Shown here: in pieces, positions 4,966 through 44,738 of the stretch | How the letters are laid out: every line of letters begins with the position of its first letter | Position numbering within the stretch: position 1 is the stretch's first letter | Source: a virus | Length of the DNA: 46,080 nucleotides | Virus record (IMG/VR): IMGVR_UViG_3300035660_001479 | Coordinates: 1-46,080 of that record | Strand: one strand, 5' to 3' | Program-made: the position numbers and the translations under genes | The notes under the pieces: generated by a model | Seen by the model: only the letters and a program-made list of their open reading frames with translations | What the model was told of the DNA's origin: nothing | Databases searched by the model: none

Positions 4966-5305
4966 TCGCTGAATCGGCCCTATCATCGTCCGCGTGAAGC
5001 GGACCTGGGACATCACCAACAAACGAGGCGGCGCATGGAGGCGCGGCGGGCCCTTGAGCGTATCCGTCAAGGGCAGGCGATGGGCGCGCATGGCCGCCGC
5101 CGTCACGGTCATCCGCCGACGGGTCGCGGATAGATCCTCCACCCAGGTCCCCGCGGCCCGCGGCGGAGTGTTGCCGCGGTTCTGGCGCAATGCAAACCCA
5201 ACGGGCCGATCGCAAGATCAAGACCATCGCTCCGATAGCCGTCTGTGGGCGGGGTCCAGCCGGGGCCTCCAAGTCCGCAGGGCATTCTATCCGGAGGGGA
5301 TTGCC
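4966..5305. other. Left-end noncoding region of the prophage
   Basis: 340 bases without a convincing gene. A perfect 6-bp hairpin (GTCCGC, GTGAA, GCGGAC) at 4988-5004 is next to the attachment fragment and could be an integrase or excisionase arm site or just chance. The first prophage palindrome is at 5050-5074. A strong GGAGGGG Shine-Dalgarno precedes the tiny frame at 5306. No sigma-70 promoter is clear. Confidence 0.4.
5050..5074 (+). repeat. Prophage palindrome, copy 1
   Basis: GCCCTTGA, nine bases, TCAAGGGC, perfect arms, followed by AGGCG. It lies in noncoding DNA upstream of the first phage genes. Confidence 0.8.
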
Positions 5306-5326
5306 ATGTCAAGAGAACGGCCATGA
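5306..5326 (+). CDS. Possible six-residue leader peptide (MSRERP)
   Basis: This tiny frame has the best Shine-Dalgarno of the area (GGAGGGG five bases before its ATG). It ends in ATGA overlapping the start of the next gene, which itself has only a weak site. That layout suggests translational coupling of the lysozyme-like gene to a leader. It could also be an accident of start choice. Confidence 0.35.
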   Translation: MSRERP

Positions 5327-6420
5327 ACGGGATCAGCCGGGATCCGTCACGATTGCTGATCGCGGCCCTTACGGCGATCGGCGCCGAAGACGGCGGACAG
5401 CGATGCGAACTCTGCCGATCCTTCATCGACGGCGATTGCGATGGCCTGCCGGGCGGGGGCCCTGCGCCCAGCTGCTTCGAGCGAGCCATCGATCAGCACG
5501 GCGACATCGACCCGGAAACGGGCGATTGGGATCGAGAAAAACCCCTGAACGGCCGGGCGGCTCCCCACACGCCCGGTGCTTCGGCCGAGCCGCCGGCGGA
5601 AGGCGTCCCCCCCGGCGCCCCCGCCGCGGCCGGCCGGTTGTTCGTGGGAGAGATGCTGGATTGGATCCGGCGGCGGTACTCGCCCGTCGAACGGGCGATG
5701 GCCGCGGCGCTGCGAGGAGGCGCCATCGCCTGCCTCGTGGCCGCGCCGGCGGTACTGGGGGTCATCCATACTGAGGCAAGCCGACCTGGGACGGGACCGG
5801 CGGCGGTTCTGCCGAACCTGCCGCCGGCCCGCCCGGCCGGATACCTAAGCCCGAACGGCGAAAAGTTCTCCTTTTTCCAAGCGGCTGTGGCGCGAGGGCC
5901 GGAAAGATGCGCCCACGCGGCGGCTCCCTCCTCCGCCGCGGGGCGCAACCGCAGCGAGGCATCCGGGCCACAATCCCGGCGTCAAGCTGGGCGGGCGGCC
6001 GGGTTCCTCAGCCGGTCCCTCGCGCTCGGCCGGTTCCTCGATGCCGTGGAGGCGGTCGAGTCGGGCGGGGACGCCCAGGCCGTGGGCGACGGCGGACGGT
6101 CCCTTGGCCCGTATCAGATTTCCGCGGGATATTGGGCCGACGGGGGCGGGGATCCCGCGGTCTATCTGCGGGAGGTATGGCACCGCCAACCCTGCCGGGC
6201 CGTGATCGTCGAGTACTTCCGCCGCTACTGCCCGGCGGCCCTGGCGCGCGGGGACTGGCGGAGGCTGGCGGCGGTCCACAACGGCGGCCCCGACGGAGGA
6301 TCCAAGCCGGCGGCAGGGCGGTACGCGGCCCGCGTGGCTGAACGGATGCAGAGAATCCAGGCGAAAGGACTCCAGCATGTCGAGCGACCCGACTCGCCCG
6401 TGGACTGCCGCGGAGTTTGA
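5323..6420 (+). CDS. Membrane-anchored lysozyme-like cell wall hydrolase
   Basis: A 365-residue protein. The C-terminal third looks like a lysozyme fold of the i-type/transglycosylase kind: AVEAVESGG with likely catalytic Glu246, GDGG, SLGPYQIS at 261-267, and VHNGGPDGG near 318-326. Residues about 126-148 form a hydrophobic segment that could be a membrane or signal-anchor helix. The N-terminal part has a CELC pair and is otherwise low complexity. Likely role: phage peptidoglycan degradation at lysis. Its position at the left end of the rightward genes is unusual for an endolysin, which normally sits late. It overlaps the next gene by 44 bases. An internal-virion role is possible. Confidence 0.65.
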   Translation: MNGISRDPSRLLIAALTAIGAEDGGQRCELCRSFIDGDCDGLPGGGPAPSCFERAIDQHGDIDPETGDWDREKPLNGRAAPHTPGASAEPPAEGVPPGAPAAAGRLFVGEMLDWIRRRYSPVERAMAAALRGGAIACLVAAPAVLGVIHTEASRPGTGPAAVLPNLPPARPAGYLSPNGEKFSFFQAAVARGPERCAHAAAPSSAAGRNRSEASGPQSRRQAGRAAGFLSRSLALGRFLDAVEAVESGGDAQAVGDGGRSLGPYQISAGYWADGGGDPAVYLREVWHRQPCRAVIVEYFRRYCPAALARGDWRRLAAVHNGGPDGGSKPAAGRYAARVAERMQRIQAKGLQHVERPDSPVDCRGV

Positions 6421-6690
6421 TCATTTCCTCGAACTTGCCGCGACGGGCGTGAGCTGGGCGGAGATCTCCCGCCGAATCGACCGAATTCAATTGCCGCCAC
6501 CCCGGGGAGTTGATCCCTATCGTACAGAGGGCCCTGTCCCGGCAGGTATTACAGCTCTTGCAGGATCAACTCGAGGGGATGAGGGCGGATATTGCGGCGA
6601 GGCATCAGGCGCTCCTCGAGGGAATCCGGCATGTCTGCCGATCGCTCGACCCCGTCATCAAGGCCCTCAAGAACACCACGACGGAGTAAT
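6377..6690 (+). pseudogene. Small SANT/Myb-like protein, split by a +1 frameshift
   Basis: The frame starting at 6377 (AAAGGA upstream) encodes RPWTAAEFDHFLELAATG followed by SWAEISRRIDR, a SANT/Myb-like helical DNA-binding pattern. It then turns into proline-rich nonsense. Near 6485 the next frame takes over with EFNCRHPGEL, a coiled-coil-like stretch QLLQDQLEGMRADIAARHQ and an end at TAA 6688-6690. Joining the two gives the expected RT/EF-xCRH ending of the motif, so one ancestral gene of about 100 codons is likely. The second frame has a stop just upstream and no good start. It could be a mutation, an assembly error or programmed shifting. Confidence 0.5.
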
Positions 6691-6765
6691 TAACGTCCCC
6701 CCCCTTGGCAGGCGCTTTCGGAGACCCGCCATGTCCTCTGGGGCGGGGCGGGCGAGGAGATCGAG

Positions 6766-7047
6766 ATGGACGTGAGCATACTCGGCGAGGTCGAGGTCCT
6801 GGTCCCGGTGGCGGTCATCATTTTGGACGGGGGGGTCTGCCTGGTGCCCCAGCTGCACCGGATGAGATCGGCCCAGCATATTACACCCTCGTCACCGCCA
6901 TCGGGATCGGCCGTGACAGGGCCTGTCAAGAGCCCGCAGACCGAGATGCCGCTCCTGATCCTGGGCCCGGGCGGCGATTATTTCCGCAACATCTATGCGG
7001 CGGACCTGACCGGGGGCTGTGCCCGATGCAACACCGGAACCAATTGA
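6766..7047 (+). CDS. Small phage protein of unknown function
   Basis: A 93-residue frame with a good GAGGAG six bases before the ATG. The N-terminal part is hydrophobic (VEVLVPVAVIILDGGVCLV). The C-terminal part has DYFRNIYAADLTGGCARCN with a CxxC pair. No family recognised. The spacing to the next gene is 14 bases, and GAAGAAGGG at the junction serves that gene. The middle portion is low complexity, so a partly wrong frame is possible. Confidence 0.45.
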   Translation: MDVSILGEVEVLVPVAVIILDGGVCLVPQLHRMRSAQHITPSSPPSGSAVTGPVKSPQTEMPLLILGPGGDYFRNIYAADLTGGCARCNTGTN

Positions 7048-7061
7048 AGAAGGGAAATCCG

Positions 7062-7628: not shown

Positions 7629-7661
7629 GAGCAAACCCCTAAACCCGCGAAAGGCACTGCA

Positions 7662-9728
7662 ATGTCAAAAAGACGAAAAACCAATGGCGCCGGCGAGGCC
7701 CTTGACACGTCGCATCAAGGCCAGGCCGCGCCGGCTCGCCGACAGCAGGAATGCGACGAGATCTTTGCCGAGTACGATAAGCACCCGCCCGGCGATCGCC
7801 CGAAACCCGCGGCCAGGGCGCACCTGGTCATGGTGCCCATTGCCTCCATCGCCGCCGGGGGCAACGTTCGGGCCAAGCCCGATGAACCGTTCCTCGTCGG
7901 GCTCCAGACCTCGATCAGCGAGCTGGGGATGCTCGAGCCGATCATCCTGCGGAAGATGCCCGATGGGCCGTTCCGCGTGGTGGCCGGGTTCCAGCGCCTG
8001 GAGGCGGCTCGCCGGGCGGGCGAGGAGATGATCGAGGCGAAGCTCTATTCCGGTGCGGGGATCGACGACGCCTGGGAGGCTGCGGCGCGCCTGGCCGAAA
8101 ACGTCCAGCGTCGGGATCTCTCCCACATGGAGCTGGCGGGGATCTTCGGGGCGGCGGTCAAGGCCGGCATGGCGCCGGCCCAGATCGCCGCGGCGGCCAA
8201 CGTCAGCGACGACATGGTCCGCCGTCATCTGTCGCTCCTGCGGCTGACGGGGCCGGTGGCGGAGCTGGCTGAATCCGGCAGACTGCCGGTTCAGCACGCC
8301 GAGATCATCGCCCGCGTGGGTGATACGGCGAAACAGATCGAGCTGGCAGAGCATTGCCTGCGGATGGAGTGGTCGCCCGGAAAGAAGAAATGGACCGAGC
8401 AGTCCTGGCGGCCGCTGGGTGTCGCGCACGAGGACCCGGTGGATTATGTCGCGCCCCTGGAGGAACTACGGGCGGACGTGGCGCGGGCGATGCGCGGCCT
8501 GGCCGCATGCGGGTGGCTGAGAATCGAGCGCGAAAGCGCCCGGACCGACGGGATACAGATAGCGTCCGCGGGAAAGCCGCCCTGCGAGGGTTGCCCGGAC
8601 AACACGGCCACCCACGCCGGCGAGCCGGCCCTTTTTGCGGGGATCCACCCGCGAGGGAGCGACAAGCGCGGATTCTGCTCCAACCCCGGCTGCTACGAGG
8701 CGAAGACTGCCGCCTGGGAAAAGTTCCGCCAACGACGTAAGGCCGCGGAGGAGAAGCGGCTCAAAAGCAAGATCGCCCAGGCCCGAAAGGCGGGTGCGGA
8801 GATCTGCCAGGAATGCGGCGCGGCCGCGGAACTGGTCAAGACCCGCGATGGGCGGGAACTGTGCGGGAAATGCCGCGCCAAGGCGGAGCATCCCCATAGC
8901 CGGCGCGGGGAGAGCTGGGAGACGCGGGAAGAGCGGGTGGCGGCGATCAAGAGGAAGTTCCCCTGGGAGCCAGAGCAGCGGTTCGCCCTGGGGACGTACA
9001 AATGGGCCGGGACGGTCAGCGAGGCGATCGGCGGGGCGATCTCCGCCGGGACCATCAACGACGATCCCGACGTCCCCGAGGTGCTCCTGGCCCTGAAGTT
9101 GCGGCCGCTGACGCGGCAGGACTGGTTTGAGCCGCGCGAACTGGCGGGGATGCCCACGCCGATGCAGATAGGCGCTGGCAAGCACTTCAGCGGTGCTGAT
9201 CTCGCGAAGATCTGGAAAAAACTTGGGCGGCTCGATCCGGATGACCGGCCCTCGATCCATTACGACGGTGAGGCCCGCAATGTGCCGCTGCCCCAGGACG
9301 CGCTGGAGGGGATTGCGTTGCTGGAGCGTCTGGCGAGGGCGTGGCAGGTCTGGCCGAGACTGGCCCCCAAGCCGCGGGAGGAGGATTTCCGGCAGCCCGC
9401 GGAGAAGAAGCCCGCGACTCCCATCGGGAATGGGAAGGGCAAACCTGACGCCGCCGGACGCCGCGCGTGTCTGCTGTGCGGATGCACAGAGGACGCCGCC
9501 TGCCCCGGGGGATGCTCCTGGTTCGATCCGCAAAAGACGATCTGCAATCGCTGCGCCGACCTCATCCGCGGCGGCCAACGCCCCGTGGCCGAGCCGCTGA
9601 TCGCCAAGGCGCCCCTGTGGCTCCTCGAGCATATCGTCACCACCGGGAAGCTCCATGGGGACTGGCGCCGGAGCCGGATATCGCAGCGGATCCAGAAGGT
9701 CCTGAAAGCCCCGCCGGAGGCGCACTAA
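7662..9728 (+). CDS. ParB/KorB-like DNA-binding protein with C-terminal zinc fingers
   Basis: 688 residues. A ParB N-terminal domain lies at about 53-130 (VPIASIAAGGNVR, LQTSISELGMLEPIILRK, VVAGFQRLEAARRAG). It is followed by a helix-turn-helix at about 148-195 (MAPAQIAAAANVSDDMVRRH). Later parts carry several zinc clusters: CEGCP.., CQECG..CGKC, and a final CLLCGCTEDAACPGGCSW..CNRC block common in phage and plasmid proteins. Family knowledge suggests site-specific DNA binding, possibly with CTPase activity. No ParA partner is present, so plasmid partition is doubtful; a regulatory or DNA-organising role is as likely. A prophage palindrome lies in its first codons, in frame, so the true start might be further in. 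Confidence 0.75.
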   Translation: MSKRRKTNGAGEALDTSHQGQAAPARRQQECDEIFAEYDKHPPGDRPKPAARAHLVMVPIASIAAGGNVRAKPDEPFLVGLQTSISELGMLEPIILRKMPDGPFRVVAGFQRLEAARRAGEEMIEAKLYSGAGIDDAWEAAARLAENVQRRDLSHMELAGIFGAAVKAGMAPAQIAAAANVSDDMVRRHLSLLRLTGPVAELAESGRLPVQHAEIIARVGDTAKQIELAEHCLRMEWSPGKKKWTEQSWRPLGVAHEDPVDYVAPLEELRADVARAMRGLAACGWLRIERESARTDGIQIASAGKPPCEGCPDNTATHAGEPALFAGIHPRGSDKRGFCSNPGCYEAKTAAWEKFRQRRKAAEEKRLKSKIAQARKAGAEICQECGAAAELVKTRDGRELCGKCRAKAEHPHSRRGESWETREERVAAIKRKFPWEPEQRFALGTYKWAGTVSEAIGGAISAGTINDDPDVPEVLLALKLRPLTRQDWFEPRELAGMPTPMQIGAGKHFSGADLAKIWKKLGRLDPDDRPSIHYDGEARNVPLPQDALEGIALLERLARAWQVWPRLAPKPREEDFRQPAEKKPATPIGNGKGKPDAAGRRACLLCGCTEDAACPGGCSWFDPQKTICNRCADLIRGGQRPVAEPLIAKAPLWLLEHIVTTGKLHGDWRRSRISQRIQKVLKAPPEAH
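7698..7722 (+). repeat. Prophage palindrome, copy 2 (in frame)
   Basis: GCCCTTGA, nine bases, TCAAGGCC (one arm mismatch), then AGGCC. It lies within the ParB-like gene near its start and encodes ALDTSHQGQA without breaking the frame. Confidence 0.75.
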
Positions 9729-10096
9729 TGGACATCATCGTGAGGACCCCCAAGAGCGAGCAGGCCCTTGACACGAGGTGTGAAGGGCGGGCCAAGGGGC
9801 CGGCACGGTTTGCCGATATGAGGTTTGCAATTGTACTGATCTGCGCGGCGCTGATCTTAGCCGGGTGCAATTGTGCGCCGGGACCGGAAGAACCGGCGGG
9901 GACGCTTCTCTCGATCACGGCGAATCCCAACAGTTTCACGGATGCCATCACCTGCACCGTGACAACGACGACCCACGTGTTGATCGTGTCGGGCCGGGTT
10001 TCGGGCAGGATCGGGGCCTGCTGTCGAATCGAAACTAGGTCTGGGTTTCGGTGGCTGCACATCGACGGCACTGAAGGCCGAATACGGATTCTCTGA
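9728..10096 (+). CDS. Small lipoprotein, probable lysogenic-conversion gene
   Basis: The frame opens at 9728 (TAATG overlap with the ParB-like gene, GGAGG upstream) with MDIIVRTPKSE, then a palindrome, then an internal ATG at 9820 starting a classic lipoprotein signal (MRFAIVLICAALILAGC, lipobox LAGC). The mature part is about 70 residues with two Cys near its middle (ACC). The true start is uncertain: 9820 gives a normal lipoprotein but has no clear Shine-Dalgarno; 9728 adds a 30-residue leader. The leader repeats the start of the next gene (MDIIVTTPKSE). Small phage lipoproteins often block superinfection, which is only inference here. Confidence 0.6.
   Translation: MDIIVRTPKSEQALDTRCEGRAKGPARFADMRFAIVLICAALILAGCNCAPGPEEPAGTLLSITANPNSFTDAITCTVTTTTHVLIVSGRVSGRIGACCRIETRSGFRWLHIDGTEGRIRIL
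9764..9788 (+). repeat. Prophage palindrome, copy 3
   Basis: GCCCTTGA, nine bases, TGAAGGGC (one mismatch), then GGGCC. It sits between the duplicated MDIIV start and the lipoprotein signal, and reads ALDTRCEGRA in frame. Confidence 0.75.
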
Positions 10097-10104: not shown

Positions 10105-10566
10105 ATGGACATCATCGTGACAACGCCGAAGTCCGAGCGGGCCAACGCGGCCGCAGAGGCCCGCGACTGCATCGCCGCCGGCAACGGTTCCGGGGCCGAG
10201 TACTTCCGGCGCTTCGCTTCGCAGGCGGCGCCGCGGAAGCTGCGGGTCGGGGAACGCGTCTACTACGTCGAGGACGGCTACGTCCGCGGGTACGCGATCG
10301 TGAGCCGCATCGAGGTCCGTCTGGTCTGGCTGTATTGCGAGACGAGCGGGCGGATCTGGCCGGCGGGGTTTTACGTCTTCATGCCCGCCAGCAGCTGGCG
10401 GTGGATCGCCCCGATCGCCATGCGGGGGTTCCAGGGCTTTCGATACGCCCCGCCGGCCGGGGTGGGCGGAGAGCGCCGGCTGGGCGACGTCCTGGATAAC
10501 GTGGTCCAGGAGATCGGCGGGTGGCTGGACCCGATGCCGGCAACCGCGACGAAGGGCCGGCCATGA
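10105..10566 (+). CDS. Conserved-looking phage protein of unknown function
   Basis: 153 residues, start MDIIVTTPKSE. The central region has KLRVGERVYYVEDGYVRGYA and later a Trp-rich patch (MPASSWRWIAPIAMRGFQGF), which suggests a small beta-barrel, perhaps nucleic-acid or ligand binding. I recall similar frames in other phages but no function. The stop overlaps the next ATG (ATGA), indicating coupled translation. The first eleven residues are nearly duplicated upstream at 9728. Confidence 0.65.
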   Translation: MDIIVTTPKSERANAAAEARDCIAAGNGSGAEYFRRFASQAAPRKLRVGERVYYVEDGYVRGYAIVSRIEVRLVWLYCETSGRIWPAGFYVFMPASSWRWIAPIAMRGFQGFRYAPPAGVGGERRLGDVLDNVVQEIGGWLDPMPATATKGRP

Positions 10567-11164: not shown

Positions 11165-11434
11165 ATGGACCCGAAACTGGAACGGGCGGTGATCGCGGAG
11201 ATCACTGACGAATTGGGCATCGACCCCGCGGGCGTGAACCGTGCGTCGCGCCTGGCCGAGGATCTGGCCGTCGATTCGCTGGAGGCGGTGGAACTGATGA
11301 TGCGGATCGAGGATGCCTTCGGACTGCGACTGCCCGAGGCCGACGTCGCCTCCCTCCGCACCGTCGGGGACGTGATCGACCTGATCGGTCGGGTCGCTGC
11401 GGGCGACACCGACGGGAGAGGAAGAGCCGGATGA
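11165..11434 (+). CDS. Acyl carrier protein
   Basis: 89 residues with the ACP pattern: a helical N-terminus, DELGIDPAGV, then DLAVDSLEAVELMMRIEDAFG, where Ser38 in DSL is the 4'-phosphopantetheine site, then LPEADVASLRTVGDVIDLI. ACPs shuttle acyl or aminoacyl groups as thioesters in the cytoplasm. Here it is embedded in rightward phage genes, coupled to the next gene by ATGA overlap, with no ketosynthase or other lipid gene nearby. A partner such as a host acyltransferase, or the phage GNAT domain at 18.5-19.6 kb, is only speculation. The family call is strong; the phage role is unknown. Confidence 0.85.
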   Translation: MDPKLERAVIAEITDELGIDPAGVNRASRLAEDLAVDSLEAVELMMRIEDAFGLRLPEADVASLRTVGDVIDLIGRVAAGDTDGRGRAG

Positions 11435-11784
11435 GCGACGCCCGGCAGCACGAACGCCTGGCGAGGTTGCGGACTGACGAACTGGTCTCGGTCCTCAACG
11501 GCTGCATGATCGGCTTGGCCGAATGCCGGGCGGACTGCCAACAGTTCGCCGAAAAGATCGCCGCGGTGGCCGAGGAACTCCTGGGACGCTGCGGGCGGGG
11601 CCGCGCGGCGCCGCCGGCGGCTGAGCCGTTGAGCCAAGACGTCAAGGGCGTGAGGGAGAAAGGACGCTCCCATGATCACAGCACGGTGCATCGCGCCGGC
11701 CTGCGACCGGCCGGCCAGGGTGATGGATTCACTGTGTCTCAAGCACTACGTCGAATCAAGACGGATCTCTCCAAGGGGCAATGA
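11431..11784 (+). CDS. Small phage protein, C-terminus altered by a palindrome
   Basis: Starts in the ATGA overlap with the ACP gene. The first 65 residues look real: helical, with MIGLAECRADCQQFAEKIAAVAEEL. The palindrome at 11625-11649 then removes any natural end. The frame runs on for some 45 codons through the start of the next gene, where the translation is poor. I infer that the gene originally ended near the palindrome. Function unknown. Confidence 0.5.
   Translation: MSDARQHERLARLRTDELVSVLNGCMIGLAECRADCQQFAEKIAAVAEELLGRCGRGRAAPPAAEPLSQDVKGVREKGRSHDHSTVHRAGLRPAGQGDGFTVSQALRRIKTDLSKGQ
11625..11649 (+). repeat. Prophage palindrome, copy 4
   Basis: GCCGTTGA (one mismatch), nine bases, TCAAGGGC, then GTGAG. 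It lies at the likely original 3' end of the preceding small gene, 23 bases before the next start. Confidence 0.75.
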
Positions 11785-12346
11785 ACCGCGCCTTGAAGAC
11801 CTCGACGGGGCGGCTGAGGCGGCGCCGCCCGCGTTGAAATTTCAAGCACCAGCCGCCGAGCCCGCGGGCGGGCCCTTGACAGAACTTGTCAAGGGCGGGA
11901 CGGCCCTAACGGCCGGGACGTCCGCGCTATCAGAGGAGACTCCGATGAGCAGCGAAGCTGAAGCCACCAAAACGCAGTGCGCCGTGCCGGCCTGTCCCCG
12001 CGCGGCCGACACCCGCGGCCTGTGCGGGTGCCATTATTCCCACCGCCGCGACGAGAGCGAGACCGGGCAGCTCGTCCGCAGGCACATCCTGCCCTCCAGG
12101 CGGGGCCGGAAGCGCCAGCCGGACCCCAGAACGGCGATCGATCGAACGGTCGGCCCCAGCGGGGCCCGGCCGGCCTCGGCGGACCAGGCGGCGGTGGGGG
12201 CCATACGCGAGGTTCTGCGGCTGCTGAACATCCGCTGGGTCGATCTGCCGACCGAGATCGGCCATGCCTTCATCGGCAAGGACGGCGTGGCCGTGCTGCG
12301 GGCCGATGGCACCCTGACGGCGGGCCGGCTGAACATCGGGGCCTGA
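11672..12346 (+). CDS. Zinc-motif protein, possibly two genes fused across a palindrome
   Basis: One open frame of 224 residues with two similar cysteine motifs: CIAPACDRPARVMDSLCLKH at about 6-25 and CAVPACPRAADTRGLCGCHY at about 101-120. Both look like small Cys/His zinc knuckles. An in-frame ATG at 11945 has an excellent AGAGGAG site and starts the second motif. A palindrome at 11872 lies between them. Two tandem duplicated genes, now joined in one frame, fit best. The C-terminal part (IREVLRLLNIRWVDLP...) is a separate small domain. GAAAGGA precedes the first ATG. Function unknown; nucleic-acid binding is plausible. Confidence 0.6.
   Translation: MITARCIAPACDRPARVMDSLCLKHYVESRRISPRGNEPRLEDLDGAAEAAPPALKFQAPAAEPAGGPLTELVKGGTALTAGTSALSEETPMSSEAEATKTQCAVPACPRAADTRGLCGCHYSHRRDESETGQLVRRHILPSRRGRKRQPDPRTAIDRTVGPSGARPASADQAAVGAIREVLRLLNIRWVDLPTEIGHAFIGKDGVAVLRADGTLTAGRLNIGA
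11872..11896 (+). repeat. Prophage palindrome, copy 5 (in frame)
   Basis: Perfect arms GCCCTTGA and TCAAGGGC around nine bases, followed by GGGAC. It reads PLTELVKGG in the zinc-motif frame, 49 bases before the internal start at 11945. Confidence 0.85.
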
Positions 12347-12352: not shown

Positions 12353-13255
12353 ATGAGCCACGGCGGGACCCGCGAGTGGAGCGAGACGAGCGTCAACTGC
12401 TGCCTGGGCTGCGCCCACAGCTGCGTCTATTGCTACGCCCGCGAGATCGCGATGCGGTTCGGCGGGCTGAAGCGTGGGATAGACTGGCAGATGGAACGCC
12501 CCATGAACCTGGAAAAGGTCCGGTGCGAGGAACGGTTCGCCCGCCGGTATCGCGGCGTGGTGATGTTTCCCACCGCCCACGACGTCACGCCGGGCAACAG
12601 GGACGCCTGCCTGGAGGCGCTCCGATGCCTCCTGGCGGCGGGAAACCGTGTCCTCCTGGTCACCAAGCCGCGTCTGGAGATCATGCCACGGATCGTGGCG
12701 GCCCACGCCGCGGCCTTGCGGGAGCAGTTGCTATTGGGCGCGGATCCGCCGTATGGGCGCTTCGAGGTCCGCTGCTCCATCACGTGCATCGACGACAGAG
12801 TTCGTCGGCTCTGGGAACCCGGGGCGCCGAGCGTCGAGGAACGGATTGACTGCATGCGGTACCTGCGGGAAAGCAGCGTGCGCACCAGTCTGTCCATCGA
12901 GCCGTGCCTCCAGCCGGAGCGGGTCGAGGACTTGATCGCGGCCGTTGGGCGATACGTCAGCGAGACAATCTGGATCGGGATGTGCCGCAACCTGGGCCGG
13001 CGGATCGCCTGGGCGTTCAAGCCCCGCGGTGGCCTGAGCCTCGAGGAACGGCTTGAGCTGCGGAAGGCCGCCGATTGGCTGGAATCGCAGCAGACCGACG
13101 AGAAGGTCCTTGATCTTTATCGCCGCGTGGCGGCCCATCCCCAGGTGCGGTGGAAGGATTCCATCCGCGAGGTGGTGGAACTGTGCGGGCTGAACGCGGT
13201 CGGCAAGGACGGCCAAGATGACGGGGAGCAGAGCGGCGACGATGACGGGCAGTGA
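12353..13255 (+). CDS. Radical SAM protein
   Basis: 300 residues. The cluster-binding motif C20-AHS-C24-VY-C27 (CxxxCxxC) is preceded by NCCLGC, so the protein should bind a 4Fe-4S cluster and cleave S-adenosylmethionine. Layout resembles the SplB-like/DUF5131-like group found in phages: VMFPTAHDVTP, then LLVTKPRLEIMPRI, RCSITCIDD and SLSIEPCLQP, matching barrel strands of that fold. The substrate is unknown; DNA or nucleotide chemistry is usual for phage members. It starts 7 bases after the previous stop and overlaps the next gene by 38 bases. The acidic low-complexity tail may be unstructured. Confidence 0.8.
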   Translation: MSHGGTREWSETSVNCCLGCAHSCVYCYAREIAMRFGGLKRGIDWQMERPMNLEKVRCEERFARRYRGVVMFPTAHDVTPGNRDACLEALRCLLAAGNRVLLVTKPRLEIMPRIVAAHAAALREQLLLGADPPYGRFEVRCSITCIDDRVRRLWEPGAPSVEERIDCMRYLRESSVRTSLSIEPCLQPERVEDLIAAVGRYVSETIWIGMCRNLGRRIAWAFKPRGGLSLEERLELRKAADWLESQQTDEKVLDLYRRVAAHPQVRWKDSIREVVELCGLNAVGKDGQDDGEQSGDDDGQ

Positions 13256-14711
13256 TGAAACGGTGCTATACATCGCGGAACTCTGGCAGCTCCTCCCGGA
13301 GGACGCCAAGCGGAAAGGGCGGTCTACGCCCCTGGAATGGGGCAAGCTGCGCACTCCCGCCGACGATAACGAGGGCGGAGTCCGCCACCAGATGCGCTGT
13401 CAGGCGGTGAAAGCCATGCGGGAAGGCTTCGGCATCCTCGGGGTTTACTACGATCTGCTGGCGGTGTTCGGGTTTGCCCGGTCGGCGGCCCTGCGGGGGT
13501 GGCTGATCAATCACGACTACCAGGCGGCGACGGTCGCCCAGATCGGCCAGGCGATCGGATGCGCGGATGCGGGTTTCCTGGGGCGGGCGATCAGGGGACT
13601 GGTGAAGATCGGACTCCTGGTGCGGGCGAAGCGCCCGGATTTCCATGACGCGATCGCCAACGATCGGACCATCCGCGCGGGTGCGGCCGAACCGGCGACA
13701 CCGGGCGTCAAAGGCGAGCCGCCGCCCGAGGGCGAGAAGGGCGCCAAGGAGCGGCCTTCTGGGGCCATGCGACGCCGCGGGCACAAGAGCGACAGGCGCC
13801 GAGTTTCCGGCGTGCGGCCGGCCGGCGGCCGGAAACTGGCCGGACGCCGGGTGGACGCGGGCCGGACGCCGGGTGGACGCGGGCCGGACGCGGGCCGGAC
13901 GCCGGCCGGCCCGGGGCCGTCCGACGTCTCAGAGTCTAAGAATCAAAGACAACGAGACTCTCAGACAACGAGACAACGAGACTCTCAGACCGGAGACCCT
14001 CAGACGCCGACAACGGCTGCGGCTACGGCTTCGCCTTCGCCTCAGCCGTTGTCGGCCCACGGCAACGGCGAGACCTCGGGAGACTCTGAGACGGCAACGG
14101 CCCGGCCTGCGCCCGCGCCGTCGCCAGACTCGCAGACGAGTGACCTGCCGACGGGCGAAGCAGGCGACACGTCCAGACCGGCCATGCCAAGGCAGCCAGC
14201 GGAGACAAACCAGGGGGGCGACGCGGAGACAAGCGACGCGGGCGAGCGACAGACGGCCGCCACCACAGGCCCGCCGGCTTCGCCCGACGCTCAGCCGCGG
14301 GCCTCCCCGGCCACCACCCCGCCGTCGGAAGCGGCCGCTGCCGAGGGGCCGAGGCAAGCCGACCCGGCCATAGCCGACGTGGAGCTCGGGGCCGAGCGGC
14401 ACGGCGCGGCCAGCGTGGAGGCATTCGTCAACGAGATGATGGCGGTCTTGTATCCGACACGGGAGGATCTGCTGACGGAAGGTCGAAAGGCCGAGCCGCC
14501 CCAGTCGGTGGAGCGGTTCGAGGCGCGGGAACGGGGGGCGCTGGCGAGCGGGATCGCCAGGGCGATGCGAGGGCTGGGGCAGATCGGCGTCGTGGAGATG
14601 CTGAGCGCCGGGGTCAAGCAGGCGGAGCGGTTGCGGCGGCGAACGACGCGGCGGCCGAGGGGCGCGGTCTGGCTCTACTGGCTAGCCAGGCACAGGGCCA
14701 GGGGACGGTGA
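13218..14711 (+). CDS. Probable phage replication initiator / replisome organiser
   Basis: 497 residues if started at 13218 (AAGGA upstream); ATG 13242 is an alternative. The N-terminal 150 residues contain a winged-helix-like pattern (DYQAATVAQIGQAIG then FLGRAIRGLVKIGLL). It is followed by a long basic linker rich in Arg/Gly and Thr/Gln/Ser (about 160-400), and a helical C-terminus (AFVNEMMAVLYP..., GALASGIARAMRGLGQIG). The plan (DNA-binding head, disordered linker coded by repeats, helical tail) matches phage initiators such as lambda O or DnaD-type organisers. The linker DNA holds iteron-like repeats. It sits just before the terminase genes. Identity is inferred from layout, not strong sequence match. 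Confidence 0.5.
   Translation: MTGSRAATMTGSDETVLYIAELWQLLPEDAKRKGRSTPLEWGKLRTPADDNEGGVRHQMRCQAVKAMREGFGILGVYYDLLAVFGFARSAALRGWLINHDYQAATVAQIGQAIGCADAGFLGRAIRGLVKIGLLVRAKRPDFHDAIANDRTIRAGAAEPATPGVKGEPPPEGEKGAKERPSGAMRRRGHKSDRRRVSGVRPAGGRKLAGRRVDAGRTPGGRGPDAGRTPAGPGPSDVSESKNQRQRDSQTTRQRDSQTGDPQTPTTAAATASPSPQPLSAHGNGETSGDSETATARPAPAPSPDSQTSDLPTGEAGDTSRPAMPRQPAETNQGGDAETSDAGERQTAATTGPPASPDAQPRASPATTPPSEAAAAEGPRQADPAIADVELGAERHGAASVEAFVNEMMAVLYPTREDLLTEGRKAEPPQSVERFEARERGALASGIARAMRGLGQIGVVEMLSAGVKQAERLRRRTTRRPRGAVWLYWLARHRARGR
13691..13715 (+). repeat. Degenerate prophage palindrome
   Basis: Agrees with copy 7 at 31202 in 19 of 25 positions and encodes PATPGVKGE, similar to the PLTPGVKG read from that copy. 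The left arm has decayed. It lies in the linker of the putative initiator. Confidence 0.45.
13840..13915 (+). repeat. GC-rich short tandem repeats in the initiator linker
   Basis: Repeated GCCGGACGC and GGGTGGACGCGG units encode an Arg/Gly/Asp/Pro-rich linker. Such repeats arise by slippage and may be functionless. They lie directly before the iteron-like block. Confidence 0.6.
13927..14056. other. Candidate replication origin: iteron-like repeats and 14-bp inverted repeat
   Basis: Two exact 20-base copies (starting AGACAACGAG, ending ACTCTCAGAC) occupy 13947-13966 and 13971-13990, separated by AACG, with a weaker third copy after them. An imperfect inverted form (GTCTCAGAGTC) lies at 13927. 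A perfect 14-bp inverted repeat follows (GCCGACAACGGCTG at 14006-14019 and its complement at 14043-14056). Repeats inside the linker of the initiator gene are the lambda O pattern. The block is also less GC-rich than its surroundings. Confidence 0.5.
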
Positions 14712-28400: not shown

Positions 28401-28425
28401 GCCCTTGACGGCCAGCGTCAAGGGC
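28401..28425 (+). repeat. Prophage palindrome, copy 6
   Basis: Perfect arms around CGGCCAGCG, then AGGCC. Noncoding, between a hairpin and the next gene. Flanking GAGGCC and GGCCTC could extend pairing. Confidence 0.85.
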
Positions 28426-29073: not shown

Positions 29074-29372
29074 GAAGCGCGGGCGGGACGCCCGCGCCAT
29101 CAGGACACCAGGACGTGACGGACGAGGACTGGACAAGGCGGTTCGATGAGTACTGCCGCCAACGGCGGCTGGACGAGGATTCAATCGGCCGGGTGCGGCG
29201 GAGCCAGTTCCACGACATCGCCCGCGCGCAATTCCTGTGTGGCGCCAGCGAACGGGTTGTGGCGGCGTTACTGGAGCGGGCGGAGATCGAGTGCGAGCAA
29301 GCCCTTGCCGCAGACCGCCAACGGCAAGACGAGGCGGCGAGGGCGGGGTCGAGGGGCGGCGATGGCCAATAG
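29046..29372 (+). CDS. Small helical phage protein of unknown function
   Basis: 108 residues. The start at 29046 has AAGGA upstream; GTG 29070 at the preceding stop is an alternative. Helical and charged (WTRRFDEYCRQRRLDEDS, then ERVVAALLERAEIECEQAL). Overlaps both neighbours, so it belongs to a tightly packed unit between decoration and connector genes. Confidence 0.5.
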   Translation: MLRAPGDVVRSAGGTPAPSGHQDVTDEDWTRRFDEYCRQRRLDEDSIGRVRRSQFHDIARAQFLCGASERVVAALLERAEIECEQALAADRQRQDEAARAGSRGGDGQ

Positions 29373-31201: not shown

Positions 31202-31226
31202 GCCGTTGACACCCGGTGTCAAGGGC
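31202..31226 (+). repeat. Prophage palindrome, copy 7
   Basis: GCCGTTGA (one mismatch), nine bases, TCAAGGGC. Its centre CACCCGGTG lengthens the stem to a 3-base loop. It ends 12 bases before the tail tube ATG, next to the ribosome site AAGGAG. Confidence 0.8.
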
Positions 31227-32217: not shown

Positions 32218-32964
32218 ATGCAGTTTCTGTACTTCATACCCGACCGCACCAACGCCCCGCCGGAGGTCCTGGCGGAACTGGGGATCGCCGCCGTCCTGGG
32301 CTGCCCGGCCGCCACGGGCTATATCGACGCCGGGCCGAGCGGGGCGGGCGGGGTGCTCGTCGCCGCCTCCGTCGGGCCGCCGACCGCGCTGGCCTTCCGC
32401 AAGGACCGTTGGCGATGGATCCCCCGGCATGACGCGGCCGAGCCGGCGAAGGTCATTTACCACCTCGGCGTGCCGCAACCTCCGCCGGGACCCGAGGACC
32501 TGGCCAGGCCGGAAATGCTTGCGGGCAAGGCGATCATCCTGGCCGACGGGCGGGAATGGATCGTGCCCCTGGCGCGGTACTACGACGGCGGGACGCCCCT
32601 GGGACGCCGAGTCACCCTGGATGAGGCGGGAAACGAGGTCCTGGGCGTCCTGGAGGCCCGCAGGGGCCTCTGGGAGGCCGCCTGCGAGGTCTGGGAGGAG
32701 TTTGTCGCCCAGCAGGCCCTTGACAGTGAGTCTCAAGGGCAGGCCGTCGCAACGGACCGCAAGGCCCGTGAGGGCGGTATGACGCTGCTGCGGGCAAAAC
32801 AGATCGCCTCAATGGCCCTGGGGGCCAACTACCGGGTCGGCGAGTTCGAGGTTTCCGCCCTGGGCCTGCTCTCAACCGAGAACATCCATGCGGCGCTCGC
32901 CGCGATGGCCGACGTGGACGGTTTTTGCGAGATGCTTAAAAAAAAACGGGCCGACGGCGCATGA
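32218..32964 (+). CDS. Tail assembly protein, with a palindrome in the linker
   Basis: 248 residues. The first 165 residues form one domain (MQFLYFIPDRTNAPPEVLAE, then ILADGREWIVPLARYYDGG). The palindrome at 32716 lies in frame and encodes ALDSESQGQA. Then a small helical domain starts at an internal ATG 32779 (MTLLRAKQIASMALGANYRV, EVSALGLLS). It could be one two-domain protein or two genes merged. Place between tube and tape measure fits assembly chaperones. ATGA links it to the next small gene. Confidence 0.55.
   Translation: MQFLYFIPDRTNAPPEVLAELGIAAVLGCPAATGYIDAGPSGAGGVLVAASVGPPTALAFRKDRWRWIPRHDAAEPAKVIYHLGVPQPPPGPEDLARPEMLAGKAIILADGREWIVPLARYYDGGTPLGRRVTLDEAGNEVLGVLEARRGLWEAACEVWEEFVAQQALDSESQGQAVATDRKAREGGMTLLRAKQIASMALGANYRVGEFEVSALGLLSTENIHAALAAMADVDGFCEMLKKKRADGA
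32716..32740 (+). repeat. Prophage palindrome, copy 8 (in frame)
   Basis: Perfect arms around CAGTGAGTC, followed by AGGCC. Inside the tail assembly gene, 39 bases before an internal ATG with GAGGGCGG. Confidence 0.85.
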
Positions 32965-35518: not shown

Positions 35519-35559
35519 ATGAGTCGCGAGTCGCCAATCGTAAACTGAAGGAAATGTCC

Positions 35560-36891
35560 ATGACCGAGACCTATCCCAGCGACGTGACGCTCAACGGCCT
35601 GTCGGGCCTCTCCGATGAGGGCCAGGAGGTCCTCTACCCGCCCTGGAATGAGGAGCCGTACTACACCAGCTTCTACAAGATGCTCTACCGGCTCCTGGAC
35701 GCCAGCCGGCGGGCAGGCGACCTGCGGGTGTACAAGGACTCCGGCGGGGCGCTCAAATTCGGGGTGCGGGCCGGGCGGTGGCTCAATGGCGACGCGGCGG
35801 TCAACTATGCCGGGGCGACGAACCAGTCGCTGACCGACAACGCGACCAATTACATTTACCTCACCGCCGCCGGGGCGCTGGTCGTCAACACCACCGGCTT
35901 CCCCGTGCCGTCGGTGACGCCGCACATGCCCCTGGCCACCATCGCCACCGGGACGGCCTCCGCCGGCGGCGTCGCCGGGCAATATGCCCACGCGGACATC
36001 ACCGACTATCGCGGCAGGGCCTTCCTCAGCATCCCCGGCGCTTCAGGCTCAGGGGGCGGGTCGAAGGTCTTCGACTGGCAGACCTCCGTCCTGGATGAGA
36101 TCAACTTCGTCACGTCCGAGCCGGCCAGCCCCACGCTCGGCGATCGGTACATCAATACCGCAACCGGCAACTCAAGCGTCCGTGGCCAGGCGGTCGTCGC
36201 CAATCGCATCTACGAATGGAACGGGACCTCCTGGACGGAATCGACGCCGTCGGAGGGCTTCTGCTGCATGGTCGAGGACCGCGACATGCTGATCGGCTAC
36301 AACGGGTCGGCCTGGGTCGACATCGGGACCTTCGCGTTGCTTGCCGAGGCAAAGACCTTCTTCGCCGCAACCGACATCAGCGCCGCCGAGGCCGAGACGC
36401 TCACCGCCGGGGCCGCCAGCGACGCCGATGCCCTCCACAAACACGCGGCCCTGGATGAGGCAAAAACCTTCTTCGCCGCAACGGATATCAGCGGGGCGGA
36501 GGCCGAGACGCTCAGCGACGGTTCCAACGCCGACGCCCTGCACAAGCACGAAGGGGTCGAGGCCGACACGCACGGAGTTGGAAGTCCTAACGTGCTGACG
36601 GCCGCCGAGAGCGGTAAGACGCTCACAAACGAGGGTGCAACCGAGGAGAATTATCACCTGCTCCCATCCGCTGCGGCCGGCCTTACGTTCTATTTCTACT
36701 GTCAGGACTCGGACGGCATTCGTGCCACGGCGGGAAGCGGCGACACGATCCGGGTTGGCGAGACCGTTTCGGTGGCGGCCGGATACGTCAAGAGCACAAT
36801 CGTCGGTTCGTACCTCGGCCTGAAGGCCGTCAACGCGACGGAATGGGTCGCAAGGGAAATCGTCGGGACCTGGGACCTCCAGACCGCATAG
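35560..36891 (+). CDS. Tail fibre protein with DUF2793-like domain
   Basis: 443 residues starting at ATG 35560, seven bases after GAAGGA. N-terminal 200 residues probably attach to the tail tip. Residues about 190-265 carry NFVTSEPASPTLGDRYI, IYEWNGTSWTESTPSEG, MLIGYNGSAWVDIG, the DUF2793 tail fibre pattern. A 37-residue unit (EAKTFFAATDISAAEAETL... DALHKH) is then repeated twice and looks like a shaft with His residues that may bind metal in a trimer. The C-terminal 80 residues are a distinct beta domain. Confidence 0.7.
   Translation: MTETYPSDVTLNGLSGLSDEGQEVLYPPWNEEPYYTSFYKMLYRLLDASRRAGDLRVYKDSGGALKFGVRAGRWLNGDAAVNYAGATNQSLTDNATNYIYLTAAGALVVNTTGFPVPSVTPHMPLATIATGTASAGGVAGQYAHADITDYRGRAFLSIPGASGSGGGSKVFDWQTSVLDEINFVTSEPASPTLGDRYINTATGNSSVRGQAVVANRIYEWNGTSWTESTPSEGFCCMVEDRDMLIGYNGSAWVDIGTFALLAEAKTFFAATDISAAEAETLTAGAASDADALHKHAALDEAKTFFAATDISGAEAETLSDGSNADALHKHEGVEADTHGVGSPNVLTAAESGKTLTNEGATEENYHLLPSAAAGLTFYFYCQDSDGIRATAGSGDTIRVGETVSVAAGYVKSTIVGSYLGLKAVNATEWVAREIVGTWDLQTA
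36346..36558 (+). repeat. Tandem duplication of a 111-base unit in the fibre gene
   Basis: Unit 1 starts GAGGCAAAGACCTTCTTCGC at 36346, unit 2 GAGGCAAAAACCTTCTTCGC at 36457. The copies differ at scattered third positions, so the duplication is not recent. It lengthens the fibre shaft. Confidence 0.75.
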
Positions 36892-36902
36892 GAGATGAGG
36901 CA

Positions 36903-38207
36903 ATGACACTGACGCGCATCAACGCGGCCGGCGCCGCCAAGGCGAGCAGCATCCTTCGCACCCTGCTTGACGACATGCTGATAAACGGCAGGCGCGGCTC
37001 CATCGTCAACTGCAAATACACCGAGACGCCGGATGACCATCTTGGCGTGGATGACACGACGCACAACCGGACGTACCTTTTCATGAACCGCGCCGCGCGC
37101 CTGGATTTCCGTGGGGTCATCAACCGCGTGAAGATCAACTTGGGCGAACTCGACGACGTGGACCAGATACGCTTGTGCGTCACCCGGTTTTCGTATTCCA
37201 CCGACGACTACGCCGCCTATCGGTTCCGGGTCATCTCGACCAGCCAATGGTTCGCCGCCGGCGGCCTGGCCGAGAACGCCGAAAACGATTTCACCTCGAT
37301 CACCTGGAGCTGGGGCCTGGCCGAGCATTGGCATGACTGCGGGGATTTCCTCGGGATCGAGATCGACGGCAAGGCGACCGCGGACTCGACAACGGACATA
37401 CTCCCCGTGGATACGGGCCTGACCGCCAGCTGGTACGATTGCCGGTACGTGAGCACCCTGCCGGATGCCGGGACGGTGACTGAGTGGAGCAGCACCGGGG
37501 CGACGGGCAAATCGCCGAGATTCACGGTCTACTCCAACATCCCCCACCTGGTGATGTTCGGCGATTCCATCTCCCTCGGCTCCGACAGCGCCAATCCCCG
37601 CTGGGACGCCTTCGCCAACGTGGGCCCGAGCCTCACGCCTTCCAGTTGGGACCCGTGGCACAGTCCCGCCAAGTGGATCGCCGAGGGAACCGGCCTTGAC
37701 ACGGGGATCATCGGGATGGGCGGCACGTCTCGGACGGATTGGAATCCGCCCAGTGCGACGTACTGGGCACGCGTCGCGGCCTGCACGCCGATGTCCGCGG
37801 CGCTCGTCCTGGGCACCAATGACATTCTCAATCAGGCGGGGGCGGGCGAGGCGCTCCTGGACTTCACGAATAAACTCTTCGGCGGCATGGGAGAGGACGG
37901 CGTTTTTCCCACGCTCAAGACGATGGGATGCCGCGGGATCATGGTGTCCGTTCCGCCGCTGGCGAAGATCTTCGGGATTTGGACCAATCTGGACCTTCTC
38001 CACCATGAGATTCGGGCATGGAACGCCGTCCTAAAGCGGAAGTGCCGCGACCAGGGAATCCCGTTCGCCGATCCGTGGAGGGGCTTGGCCAGTCCGTATG
38101 ATCCCCGCCAGACGGGACCGCCCCTTGTCACCCTTGATACCCATCCGTCGGTGGCGGGATACAAGGTCCTGGCGGAGGCGGTCATCGACGCCATGAAGGA
38201 GATATGA
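36903..38207 (+). CDS. Virion-associated SGNH/GDSL hydrolase
   Basis: 434 residues. The C-terminal domain has all SGNH blocks: FGDSIS near 219 (nucleophile Ser), the Gly-rich GMGGTSRTDW, LGTNDI near 308, and LDTHPSVAGY near the end with the Asp-x-x-His pair. The N-terminal 200 residues are a beta-rich domain, probably trimer or virion attachment. These enzymes deacylate esters; on a phage tail the likely target is acetyl groups of surface polysaccharide. GGAGATGAGGCA precedes the start. Neighbours are fibre and beta-helix genes. Confidence 0.85.
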   Translation: MTLTRINAAGAAKASSILRTLLDDMLINGRRGSIVNCKYTETPDDHLGVDDTTHNRTYLFMNRAARLDFRGVINRVKINLGELDDVDQIRLCVTRFSYSTDDYAAYRFRVISTSQWFAAGGLAENAENDFTSITWSWGLAEHWHDCGDFLGIEIDGKATADSTTDILPVDTGLTASWYDCRYVSTLPDAGTVTEWSSTGATGKSPRFTVYSNIPHLVMFGDSISLGSDSANPRWDAFANVGPSLTPSSWDPWHSPAKWIAEGTGLDTGIIGMGGTSRTDWNPPSATYWARVAACTPMSAALVLGTNDILNQAGAGEALLDFTNKLFGGMGEDGVFPTLKTMGCRGIMVSVPPLAKIFGIWTNLDLLHHEIRAWNAVLKRKCRDQGIPFADPWRGLASPYDPRQTGPPLVTLDTHPSVAGYKVLAEAVIDAMKEI

Positions 38208-43273: not shown

Positions 43274-43276
43274 GCG

Positions 43277-43867
43277 ATGGCCAACGCGATCCAATGGTAC
43301 AAAGGCGGGATTCTCTGGCGCAGCGGCGGCATGGCGTTCAACGCAGCTTGTTGCTGCAAGACCTACACGCCGGGCAACCCGTGCCCCTATTGTTCCGGCG
43401 GCACTCCGCGTTCATACGCCGTGACGTTCTCCGGCATCTCCGTCTGTGCGCCATGTTACGGGTTTACGAGCGAGAGATACGAATGGGTGGGTGCACCTGA
43501 AATCAATGGTTCCTTCCAGATCGACCAGACGGGCGACTGGCTGAACTGCGAGTGGCAACGCCTTGATGAGGGGAACTACGGGACGGTGAGGTGGTGGCAT
43601 CTCGACCCGGATTGCTCCGGCTCATACGTCTCCATCCCGATGACCCACAGGGCGATCAGGCTGCTCAACATCAACATCCCGGTCTTGAAGTACGTATTTA
43701 AGGGCTGCACCGAGGGGCTGTATCCGGATTGTTTCACGGCCATCGCCTTTCGGTGCGAAGGCGACGTATGGGACAGGTGCGCGGAAGGCCTGGTGCTCGG
43801 GAACCAGGCCGGATGCAGCCTTGGCGACAGTGCCACGGGCGGCCAAGCCGTCCTAGAGCCGGTATGA
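43277..43867 (+). CDS. Cysteine-rich tail protein of unknown function
   Basis: 196 residues with about 17 Cys, many paired (ACCCK, CPYC, CAPC, then CTEGLYPDC, CEGDVWDRC). The central pattern (RSYAVTFSGISVCAPCYGF, INGSFQIDQTGDWLNCEW) resembles repeated Cys-stabilised beta domains that I recall from planctomycete proteins. No signal peptide. It follows the hub gene by three bases and is probably carried on the tail tip. Confidence 0.55.
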   Translation: MANAIQWYKGGILWRSGGMAFNAACCCKTYTPGNPCPYCSGGTPRSYAVTFSGISVCAPCYGFTSERYEWVGAPEINGSFQIDQTGDWLNCEWQRLDEGNYGTVRWWHLDPDCSGSYVSIPMTHRAIRLLNINIPVLKYVFKGCTEGLYPDCFTAIAFRCEGDVWDRCAEGLVLGNQAGCSLGDSATGGQAVLEPV

Positions 43868-43903
43868 AGCCGGCCAGGGCGGCCAAGTCCTCTGTGAGCC
43901 GTT

Positions 43904-44467
43904 ATGAAACTGAGTAGGCAGGAACACCGAGATCGAACTCCCGTGAGACCACTGGCCAAGACCCAACTCTGCCGACAATGCGCGCGGGGAAGATTCCTGC
44001 CGACCGAATGCCGCAACCTGGAAGGGGGCATGGCCTGGCGGGGGAGCCTTATGGCCTGGGCGGCGGTCCCAGGCAACCTGGTTGACTTCGACTGTCCCCT
44101 TGGCCGCCCGTGGGGATGGAAGCCCGAGAAGCAGAAAGGCTCAGACCACAGGCCATTAGACCATTCGGCGCAGAGGTTCGCCGCCGAGCGGCGTGCGATC
44201 TGTCAGGAATGCCCGCACTGGTCCTCGGCGGATAAGCGCGGCGCGAAGTGCGCTCTATGGGGCGGCAGCCCATGCCGGTGGAAAATATACGTGAATCTTA
44301 GGGGAGCCGTTTGCCCCGCCGACCCGCCGCGCTGGGGGCCCTTGACGGTCGGCGTCAAGGGCGGGCCGGTGGATCCTAAGCTGGAAATCCCGGCGGCGAT
44401 GACCGCCGCCGAAGAGCCAGGATCACCACCGCCGCCAGGATCGCCTGAACGCCCAGGCACTGCGTGA
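43904..44467 (+). CDS. Cysteine-cluster protein, end modified by a palindrome
   Basis: 187 residues. CRQC near 23, CR near 36 and DCPLGRPW form one Cys cluster, and CQECPHW, CALW, CRW, CPADPPRW form a second. They look like small zinc or Fe-S sites. A palindrome at 44338-44362 lies after CPADPPRW in frame, encoding PLTVGVKGG. The rest of the frame is a low-complexity Pro-rich tail. The natural end was probably near the palindrome. Function unknown. Confidence 0.5.
   Translation: MKLSRQEHRDRTPVRPLAKTQLCRQCARGRFLPTECRNLEGGMAWRGSLMAWAAVPGNLVDFDCPLGRPWGWKPEKQKGSDHRPLDHSAQRFAAERRAICQECPHWSSADKRGAKCALWGGSPCRWKIYVNLRGAVCPADPPRWGPLTVGVKGGPVDPKLEIPAAMTAAEEPGSPPPPGSPERPGTA
44338..44362 (+). repeat. 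Prophage palindrome, copy 9 (in frame)
   Basis: Perfect arms around CGGTCGGCG, followed by GGGCC. It lies near the 3' end of the cysteine-cluster gene. Confidence 0.85.
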
Positions 44468-44738
44468 GCTTCACGCGGATGGCGAAGACCACGGGGGCAA
44501 AGTTCACGGGAAACTGCCGCTGATTATCTCCCCGAGGCCTGCCCTTGACACTGAGACCTTGTGTCAAGGGTCTGCCGGCCGAGCGTTCCATCGGCGACGC
44601 GACCGCCTCCGGCGGCGGATGGCGCAGTGACCACTCGCACGCGGCGATCAGGCCCGCGCCCGAGATTACGAGAATCAAGGGCCAGAAGTTTTTGCGACTG
44701 GATTCAGCGATCCTCGGGGATAATGATCGGACGCTCAT
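44376..44738 (-). CDS. Small membrane protein with palindrome-encoded insert
   Basis: 120 residues on the minus strand. A transmembrane helix near 18-35 (NFWPLILVISGAGLIAACEW) and another at 95-108 (VQAILAAVVILAL), separated by a loop that contains the palindrome-encoded PLTQGLSVKGRPRG (44541-44571). The start overlaps the stop of the upstream gene (ATGA), so it is the third gene of the integrase operon. It overlaps the last part of the plus-strand cysteine-cluster gene by 92 bases. Function unknown; could be lysogenic conversion or superinfection exclusion. Confidence 0.5.
   Translation of the reverse strand: MSVRSLSPRIAESSRKNFWPLILVISGAGLIAACEWSLRHPPPEAVASPMERSAGRPLTQGLSVKGRPRGDNQRQFPVNFAPVVFAIRVKLTQCLGVQAILAAVVILALRRRSSPPGFPA
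44541..44571 (-). repeat. Prophage palindrome, copy 10 (minus orientation)
   Basis: CCCTTGACAC and GTGTCAAGGG, ten-pair stem, nine-base loop. On the minus strand it is followed by AGGCC, the same flank as plus-strand copies, so it is oriented with the minus-strand gene that contains it. Confidence 0.85.

Follow-up and report, generated by a model that had tools for sequence, protein, structure and literature searches.

Short dispersed palindromes of a prophage as probable members of a mobile palindromic element of planctomycetes and their phages

The stretch of DNA analysed here (the window) is a 46,080-base virus record, IMG/VR IMGVR_UViG_3300035660_001479, made up of a prophage with an integrase gene at its right end and a host-like left flank. 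Short palindromes with nearly invariant arms and a variable centre are scattered over the prophage, and we consider it very probable that they are short members of a non-autonomous mobile element of planctomycetes and their phages, similar to miniature inverted-repeat transposable elements (MITEs). The element looks as if it were often read through as extra protein. Judged by sequence, the combination of near-invariant arms and a variable centre matches a long form of the element, whose interior appears to drift while its ends stay.

The short form was searched for as GCCCTTGA-N9-TCAAGGGC, with up to three mismatches allowed and with shuffled sequences as control. The window gave 14 matches where 0.25 were expected, and the largest number in any shuffle was 3. 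Nine of the 14 had at most one mismatch, all with a 9-base centre. An earlier note, made from the sequence alone, had listed ten good copies and one decayed copy; all eleven positions hold what it described, with corrections to the centre at 44541 and to the copy at 13.69 kb. Nine of the good copies have one mismatch or none, whereas the copy at 44541 has a centre of 15 bases, and a further decayed copy at 6909 had gone unlisted. The view that the family is restricted to the prophage proved wrong, since one Planctomycetota chromosome (genome G317) carries 41 long copies.

Long relatives in phages and in a planctomycete chromosome

The phage contig L108 contains four copies of 79-82 bases that have the ends of the short copies (GCCCTTGAC...GTCAAGGGC) around centres of 61 or 64 bases. 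Of the 40 stretches returned by a pattern scan for this long form, most have another fold; contigs L222 and L232 held members, and a second L222 copy (2335-2416) was added by a covariance model, which gives four long phage copies in L108, two in L222 and one in L232. Terminal inverted repeats are present (CCCTTGAC/GTCAAGGG). In predicted RNA folds, the long copies of L108 form one stem with three hairpins, similar to a cloverleaf. Before the second L222 copy was found, five of the six long phage copies were aligned (alignment A5, with L108d and the L232 copy turned over); L108 451-529 was omitted because its hairpins are arranged differently. In this alignment 98.3% of cells were paired and 16 of 35 pairs were changed on both sides, and the nine outer stem pairs were invariant. 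None of 500 shuffles scored as high on either pairing or covariation, and both scores were above those of all slid versions. In alignment A6 (101 strand-matches) 28 of 35 pairs were changed on both sides, a count that is inflated because both strands of many elements are included and the alignment was fitted to the model; stem pairs 3, 4, 7, 8 and 9 never varied there, and pairs 2, 5 and 6 rarely did. With covariation inside and invariant pairs at the ends, the element thus conserves the sequence of its ends and the fold of its interior. Selection for a structure, as the earlier note had proposed, holds for the long form; in the short form, however, the arm changes at 7698, 9764, 11625 and 31202 break pairs without compensation. 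For the elements in L108, L222, L232 and L024 no Rfam model reached the gathering score, and none matched at E<=1 over L108 300-1400; an 82-base copy had no match in plasmids or phages by BLAST. A Type II hammerhead ribozyme, above gathering score, lies at 951-1018 of the phage contig L232.

The long pattern occurred in 3 of 324 Planctomycetota genomes, and by sight only G317 carries the element, with 34 long copies having exact 9-base arms and 41 having exact 8-base arms. The eleven matches in G158 (contigs C71, C103, C144 and C166) were CTTGAC/CTTGCC arrays and were rejected by sight as non-members; these arrays mix CTTGAC and CTTGCC units around short spacers. The single match in G148 was also rejected, having another fold by sight. 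Among the best 150 of 7527 candidates scored in G317, the covariance model gave at least 83 strand-matches; among the best 18 candidates from each of 246 Planctomycetota genomes, a sample that may not include G317, it gave none. Planctomycete genomes had been named in the earlier note as a place to look for the pattern: the short form gave one isolated match (G012) in 392 of them, whereas the long form is abundant in G317.

Signatures of insertion were analysed in 46 host copies, namely those in the retrieved G317 loci, not in the whole genome, whose arms agree at 15 or 16 of 16 letters. Identical flanking tetramers were found in 16 of them, all of the form CNNG. In a shuffle test (47 rows, one of them a duplicate) the mean was 2.1, and 0 of 20000 shuffles reached 16; the tetramers compared include the G and the C that end the stem, for which the shuffle allows. 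Identical flanks, with four different tetramers, were also observed in five of the seven long phage copies. The insert was divisible by 3 in all eight clearly coding host copies (strong codon signal on both sides) compared with 21 of 38 others (Fisher's test, p 0.016). Similarly, 14 of the 16 host copies with identical flanks had in-frame lengths compared with 15 of the 30 without (p 0.012), a duplicate reading of L273 having been removed before both tests. All seven long phage copies have an insert length divisible by 3.

Insertions could also be found within insertions. In four G317 loci (L267, L282, L283 and L298) an inner copy, its own flanks non-identical, is enclosed by an outer arm pair; the outer flanks are identical in three of the four (CAGG, CCCG and CCCG), and the outer inserts, of 177, 150, 171 and 171 bases, are all multiples of 3. 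In host topoisomerase I, residues 440-472 stand opposite 2 residues of 6ozw, and the element makes up 444-471. An RsmD-like methyltransferase, which gives two matched stretches in Pfam, has 62 residues opposite 6 of 3p9n at a 57-codon nested insert, and a protein kinase shows a 21-residue gap at its element. A mobile palindrome like the Rickettsia palindromic elements (RPEs), one of the roles first suggested for the window copies, is therefore supported by the long relatives, the CNNG duplications, the in-frame lengths and the insertion relative to solved relatives.

These results show that the ends of the element form an inverted repeat and that a full copy, of about 77-86 bases, can fold into one long stem carrying three hairpins. 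A putative transposase acting in trans may recognise the nearly invariant ends and make a 4-base staggered cut at CNNG, which would be duplicated upon insertion. In the interior only the fold would matter, and not the sequence. The inserts that lie in genes have lengths divisible by three and use one of two frames free of stops. The window form, with an insert of 27 bases or nine codons, may be an internally deleted or minimal version that retained the ends, and may have spread within the lineage of the window phage, being tolerated in disordered tails, linkers and spacers. Derivation of the short form from the long one is inferred from the ends, flank pattern and frames that the two have in common and from their presence together in L108.

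Short copies in the window and in related phages

The palindrome arms leave two of the three frames open on each strand. According to codon phase, the copies at 7698 and 32716 are in frame ALDxxxQGQA, and those at 11625 (upstream side only), 13691 and 44541 (minus strand) are in frame PLTxxVKG, as are the copies at 2300 and 3056 of the related contig L024, the latter at a gene start with a downstream signal only. The codon signal was weak or unclear at 5050, 9764, 11872, 28401, 31202 and 44338. The leucine codon was TTG in all intact peptide-framed copies, TTG being 7.3% of leucine codons; the two frames and the constant TTG indicate that the signal sits in the DNA and not in one peptide. In the five genes compared, the copies were located in tails or linkers, parts in which the homologues differ. 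The earlier note had placed eight of its eleven copies in reading frames, to which 11625 has to be added. All 14 short copies have an insert divisible by three, of either 27 or 33 bases, and 13 of them have the same length.

Exact arms were found in five window copies. The copy at 5050..5074 (no strand assigned) has the centre GCGTATCCG and reads PLSVSVKG in the open reading frame (ORF) 4994-5326, a weak gene. That at 11872..11896 (+) reads PLTELVKG in ORF 11672-12346, with a weak codon signal, between identical flanks (CGGG/CGGG). The copy at 28401..28425 (no strand assigned) lies downstream of the cement-protein gene and has a counterpart at 8767 of L024; that at 32716..32740 (+) reads ALDSESQGQA in gene 32218-32964 and is flanked identically by CAGG/CAGG; and that at 44338..44362 (+) reads PLTVGVKG in ORF 43904-44467, again with a weak codon signal. 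Four copies have one arm mismatch. At 7698..7722 (+), codon 13 of the ParB-like gene 7662-9728, the frame is ALDTSHQGQA and the centre is near that of the short copy in L108. The sequence preceding 9764..9788 (+) repeats the start of gene 10105-10566 (repeat family D12). The left arm is GCCGTTGA both at 11625..11649 (+), which reads PLSQDVKG in ORF 11431-11784, and at 31202..31226 (no strand assigned), which adjoins an AAGGAG ribosome-site-like sequence followed by an ATG at 31239. In the copy at 44541..44571 (-) the left arm is perfect, the right arm differs at one letter and the centre has 15 instead of 9 bases (insert length 33); this copy reads PLTQGLSVKG in the minus-strand ORF 44376-44738. 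The match at 6909..6933 (no strand assigned), with 13 of 16 arm letters and the centre CAGGGCCTG, is a probable decayed copy. At 13691..13715 (+), fewer than 12 of 16 arm letters are left; this strongly decayed copy is recoverable only as the peptide PATPGVKG in ORF 13218-14711 and is therefore counted as weak.

Alignment of the flanks revealed a fuller unit, GGCRGGCC, CTTGAC-N7-GTCAAG, GGCRGGCC. When 8-letter flanks were compared, two copies being turned over, the two flanks of a copy resembled each other more than flanks taken from separate copies did (77 of 104 letters against a mean of 71.6 in shuffles, p 0.011), and 4-base flanks agreed at 43 of 56 letters (p 0.03). Pairing across the centre exceeded that in shuffles at one of four positions only (p 0.028); this statistic covers 12 copies, 44541 being omitted because its centre differs in length, and was computed before the copy in L108 was included. 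The decayed copies at 6909 and 13691 were excluded from both the flank and the centre statistics. The 3' RGGCC flank described before is exact in 6 of the 10 intact window copies, 44541 being taken on the minus strand. The statement that all copies point with the local gene takes their direction from this flank alone, and by the same rule the L024 copy at 3056 opposes its gene. It is true that the 4.9 kb of host DNA contain no copy, the best score there being 12 of 16; however, about 1.3 copies would be expected in this flank at the phage density, with a chance of about 0.27 of seeing none, so that the absence says little.

Among seven contigs with a related terminase, only L024 carried copies, three in number; its terminase is 78% identical over residues 233-739. 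At the place corresponding to window 28401, one of the three copies keeps the same arms and differs in its centre. Neither of the remaining copies, which lie in a ParB-like linker and near the N-terminus of the portal, is matched by a copy in the window, which suggests turnover. Despite their unrelated places, all three L024 copies have similar centres, with agreement at 7-8 of 9 letters. A second palindrome family, CCGCAGGCGGGACGCCTGCGG with variants, occurs at 5931-10440 of L024 and at 29077-29097 of the window, partly inside capsid and other genes; a CCGCAGGCGGGACGCCTGCGG-like sequence of this family adjoins the L024 copy at 8767, and of 159 Planctomycetota genomes 2 contain a 19-base core of the family. 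When the right arm was searched for together with RGGCC, one short copy was detected in L108; it lies in the frame of the major capsid gene, and its centre resembles that of window 7698. Among 68 stretches in a relaxed scan, only L008/L024 and L108 were taken as members, L169 being doubtful. In Omnitrophota, 1 of 193 genomes (the seed) had matches, two in number. A gapped-palindrome count gave no comparable family in nine other relatives, save for GC-rich CGGCCG/CCGCCG repeats in L021 and L023. Neither the ParB-like protein (7662-9728) nor the protein encoded at 36843-38207 had relatives in the viral collection.

Several other features were observed. The host-like left flank contains an asparagine synthase gene (2623-4551), for which 2 of 294 genomes gave matches at the cut-off, with 40-43% identity, too little to inform on the host. 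Window positions 4936-4975 resemble a reverse-complement tRNA T-arm, a possible left attachment site, at which ARAGORN reported no tRNA. A tandem 11-base GC-rich repeat lies at 13804-13924 in gene 13218-14711, a run of nine A at 32938-32946 near the end of gene 32218-32964 may be where a tail assembly gene shifts frame, and a 94-base direct repeat, 79% identical, was found at 36333-36537 in ORF 35554-36891. The contigs L224 (4585, 5245) and L245 (2099, 8970, 9630) contain a hairpin repeat, GGGTCA-GCCCTTGACATGTGACAT...GTCAAGGGC-TGACCCC, which is perhaps another mobile element.

Alternative explanations and relation to known elements

A number of observations weigh against a mobile element. No transposase or autonomous copy turned up, although no dedicated search for one was made, and no exact empty site was seen at the nucleotide level. 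The element is missing from four other genomes of the family and order of G317, and the short form is missing from G317 itself. In the short copies by themselves the flank duplication is weak, with identical 4-base flanks in 4 of 14 copies compared with 3.1 by shuffle (p 0.37). Among the 46 host copies, 18 have a frame-breaking length or flanks agreeing at no more than two letters, the frame being undecidable for most of them. The lengths of the phage copies are few (25 or 31; 79 or 82), so they do not represent 21 independent in-frame events. The two L024 sites without a window counterpart differ from the window by about 15 bases net and not by a clean 27. Insertion is visible when topoisomerase I is aligned with homologues lacking the element; the copy there has non-identical flanks (CTCG/CGAG), and beyond it the alignment is weak (19.9 bits with 6ozw, 27.4 with 1cy0). 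In the RsmD-like protein the stretch after the insert is short and its match to 3p9n is not significant (4.1 bits). In addition, invariant arms beside variable centres are unlike neutral decay, so that some other constraint on the arms is possible.

Alternatively, the palindromes might be scattered sites to which a DNA-binding protein of the phage (a repressor, stoperator or ParB-like protein) attaches, similar to the 17-bp repeats of cluster O mycobacteriophages. The nearly invariant arms, the free centre and the mostly fixed spacing would suit this explanation, as would the site kept in L024 with the same arms and another centre and the ParB-like gene at 7662-9728; a close analogue has been published, of unknown role in the account given there (PMC4351075). 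However, binding sites leave unexplained the 79-82-base relatives with the same ends, the 4-base flank duplications and the nesting, the 15-base centre at 44541, the near-identical centres at unrelated L024 places and the insertion in a host enzyme, and only one of the seven terminase relatives carries copies. We thus regard this explanation as improbable. The operator, stoperator and ParB roles listed in the earlier note do not predict the length classes, the flank duplications or the cloverleaf relatives, and the window palindromes are probably not operators.

A role as RNA hairpins in the transcript, such as that of terminators or of structures close to ribosome sites, appears less probable still. 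The position of 31202 just upstream of a ribosome-site-like sequence fits such a role, and single matches to an 18-letter pattern in unrelated genomes often seemed terminator-like in our reading; yet no T-run follows the copies, the four arm changes noted above break pairs uncompensated, and by codon signal at least five window copies (7698, 11625, 13691, 32716 and 44541) lie in coding frames. The coding copies might instead reflect selection on the protein for a peptide motif, PL[TS]xx[VIL]KG. Several of them fit it, with arm changes that are synonymous or mild. Against this, 7698 and 32716 use the other frame, the leucine codon is constantly the rare TTG, and among nine relatives the motif was found only in L024, at its palindromes; of the explanations considered, this is the one to which we give least credence. 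Phage genes encoding PLTKTVKG before an SDIHCEE-like stretch were set aside, being apparently matches within one gene family.

The mobile element favoured here can be compared with several known systems. RPEs are about 150 bp long and form ten families in Rickettsia, and they represent the extreme case of the known in-frame fusion of MITEs with genes (PMC10969869). The likeness to them, one of description and not of compared sequences, is that dispersed palindromes are inserted in frame in unrelated genes and read through (PMC10969869). The present inserts differ in their length (27-33 or about 81-90 bases), GC-richness, three-hairpin fold and CNNG repeats, and in belonging to Planctomycetota and phages. 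With MITEs the element shares terminal inverted repeats, flank duplications, the lack of a gene of its own and many copies; it differs in having 8-base ends and a covarying cloverleaf interior. The 27-base form is far below the usual sizes of MITEs. Repetitive extragenic palindromes and their associated tyrosine transposases (REP/RAYT) are characterised by extragenic position and absence of flank duplication, whereas the present copies also occur in genes and have duplicated flanks. REP sequences are tagged at one end as well. Palindromes of 20-40 bp in many copies are common to both, as far as REP sequences are outlined in one source (PMC3733652).

The nearest published phage case known to us is the cluster O repeat, of which Corndog has 34 copies of a 17-bp palindrome (PMC4351075). 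There, too, palindromes with invariant arms and a variable centre are spread phage-wide, within and between genes; the centre is of 3 bases, most sites are similarly placed in five phages, and section 8 of that paper reports neither long relatives nor flank repeats (PMC4351075). In the same part, its authors considered dimeric binding proteins and judged a transcriptional role unlikely (PMC4351075). No report of the present element came up in literature searches that covered a library of open-access papers. We are evenly divided on the broader proposal that it represents a class of mobile DNA that conserves its ends as sequence and its interior as a cloverleaf, moves between planctomycete chromosomes and phages as a multiple of three bases, adds segments of 9 or 27-30 residues to working proteins including topoisomerase I, and nests in its own earlier insertions.

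If the palindromes are members of a mobile element, the habit of the Rickettsia palindromes would be present in an unrelated phylum and its phages, together with duplicated flanks, nesting, covariation within the fold and a copy inserted into topoisomerase I. The element would offer a test case for how mobile elements adapt to landing in genes, and phages may carry such elements between hosts. It should also be noted, as a caution, that palindromes dispersed over a phage genome are not necessarily operators.

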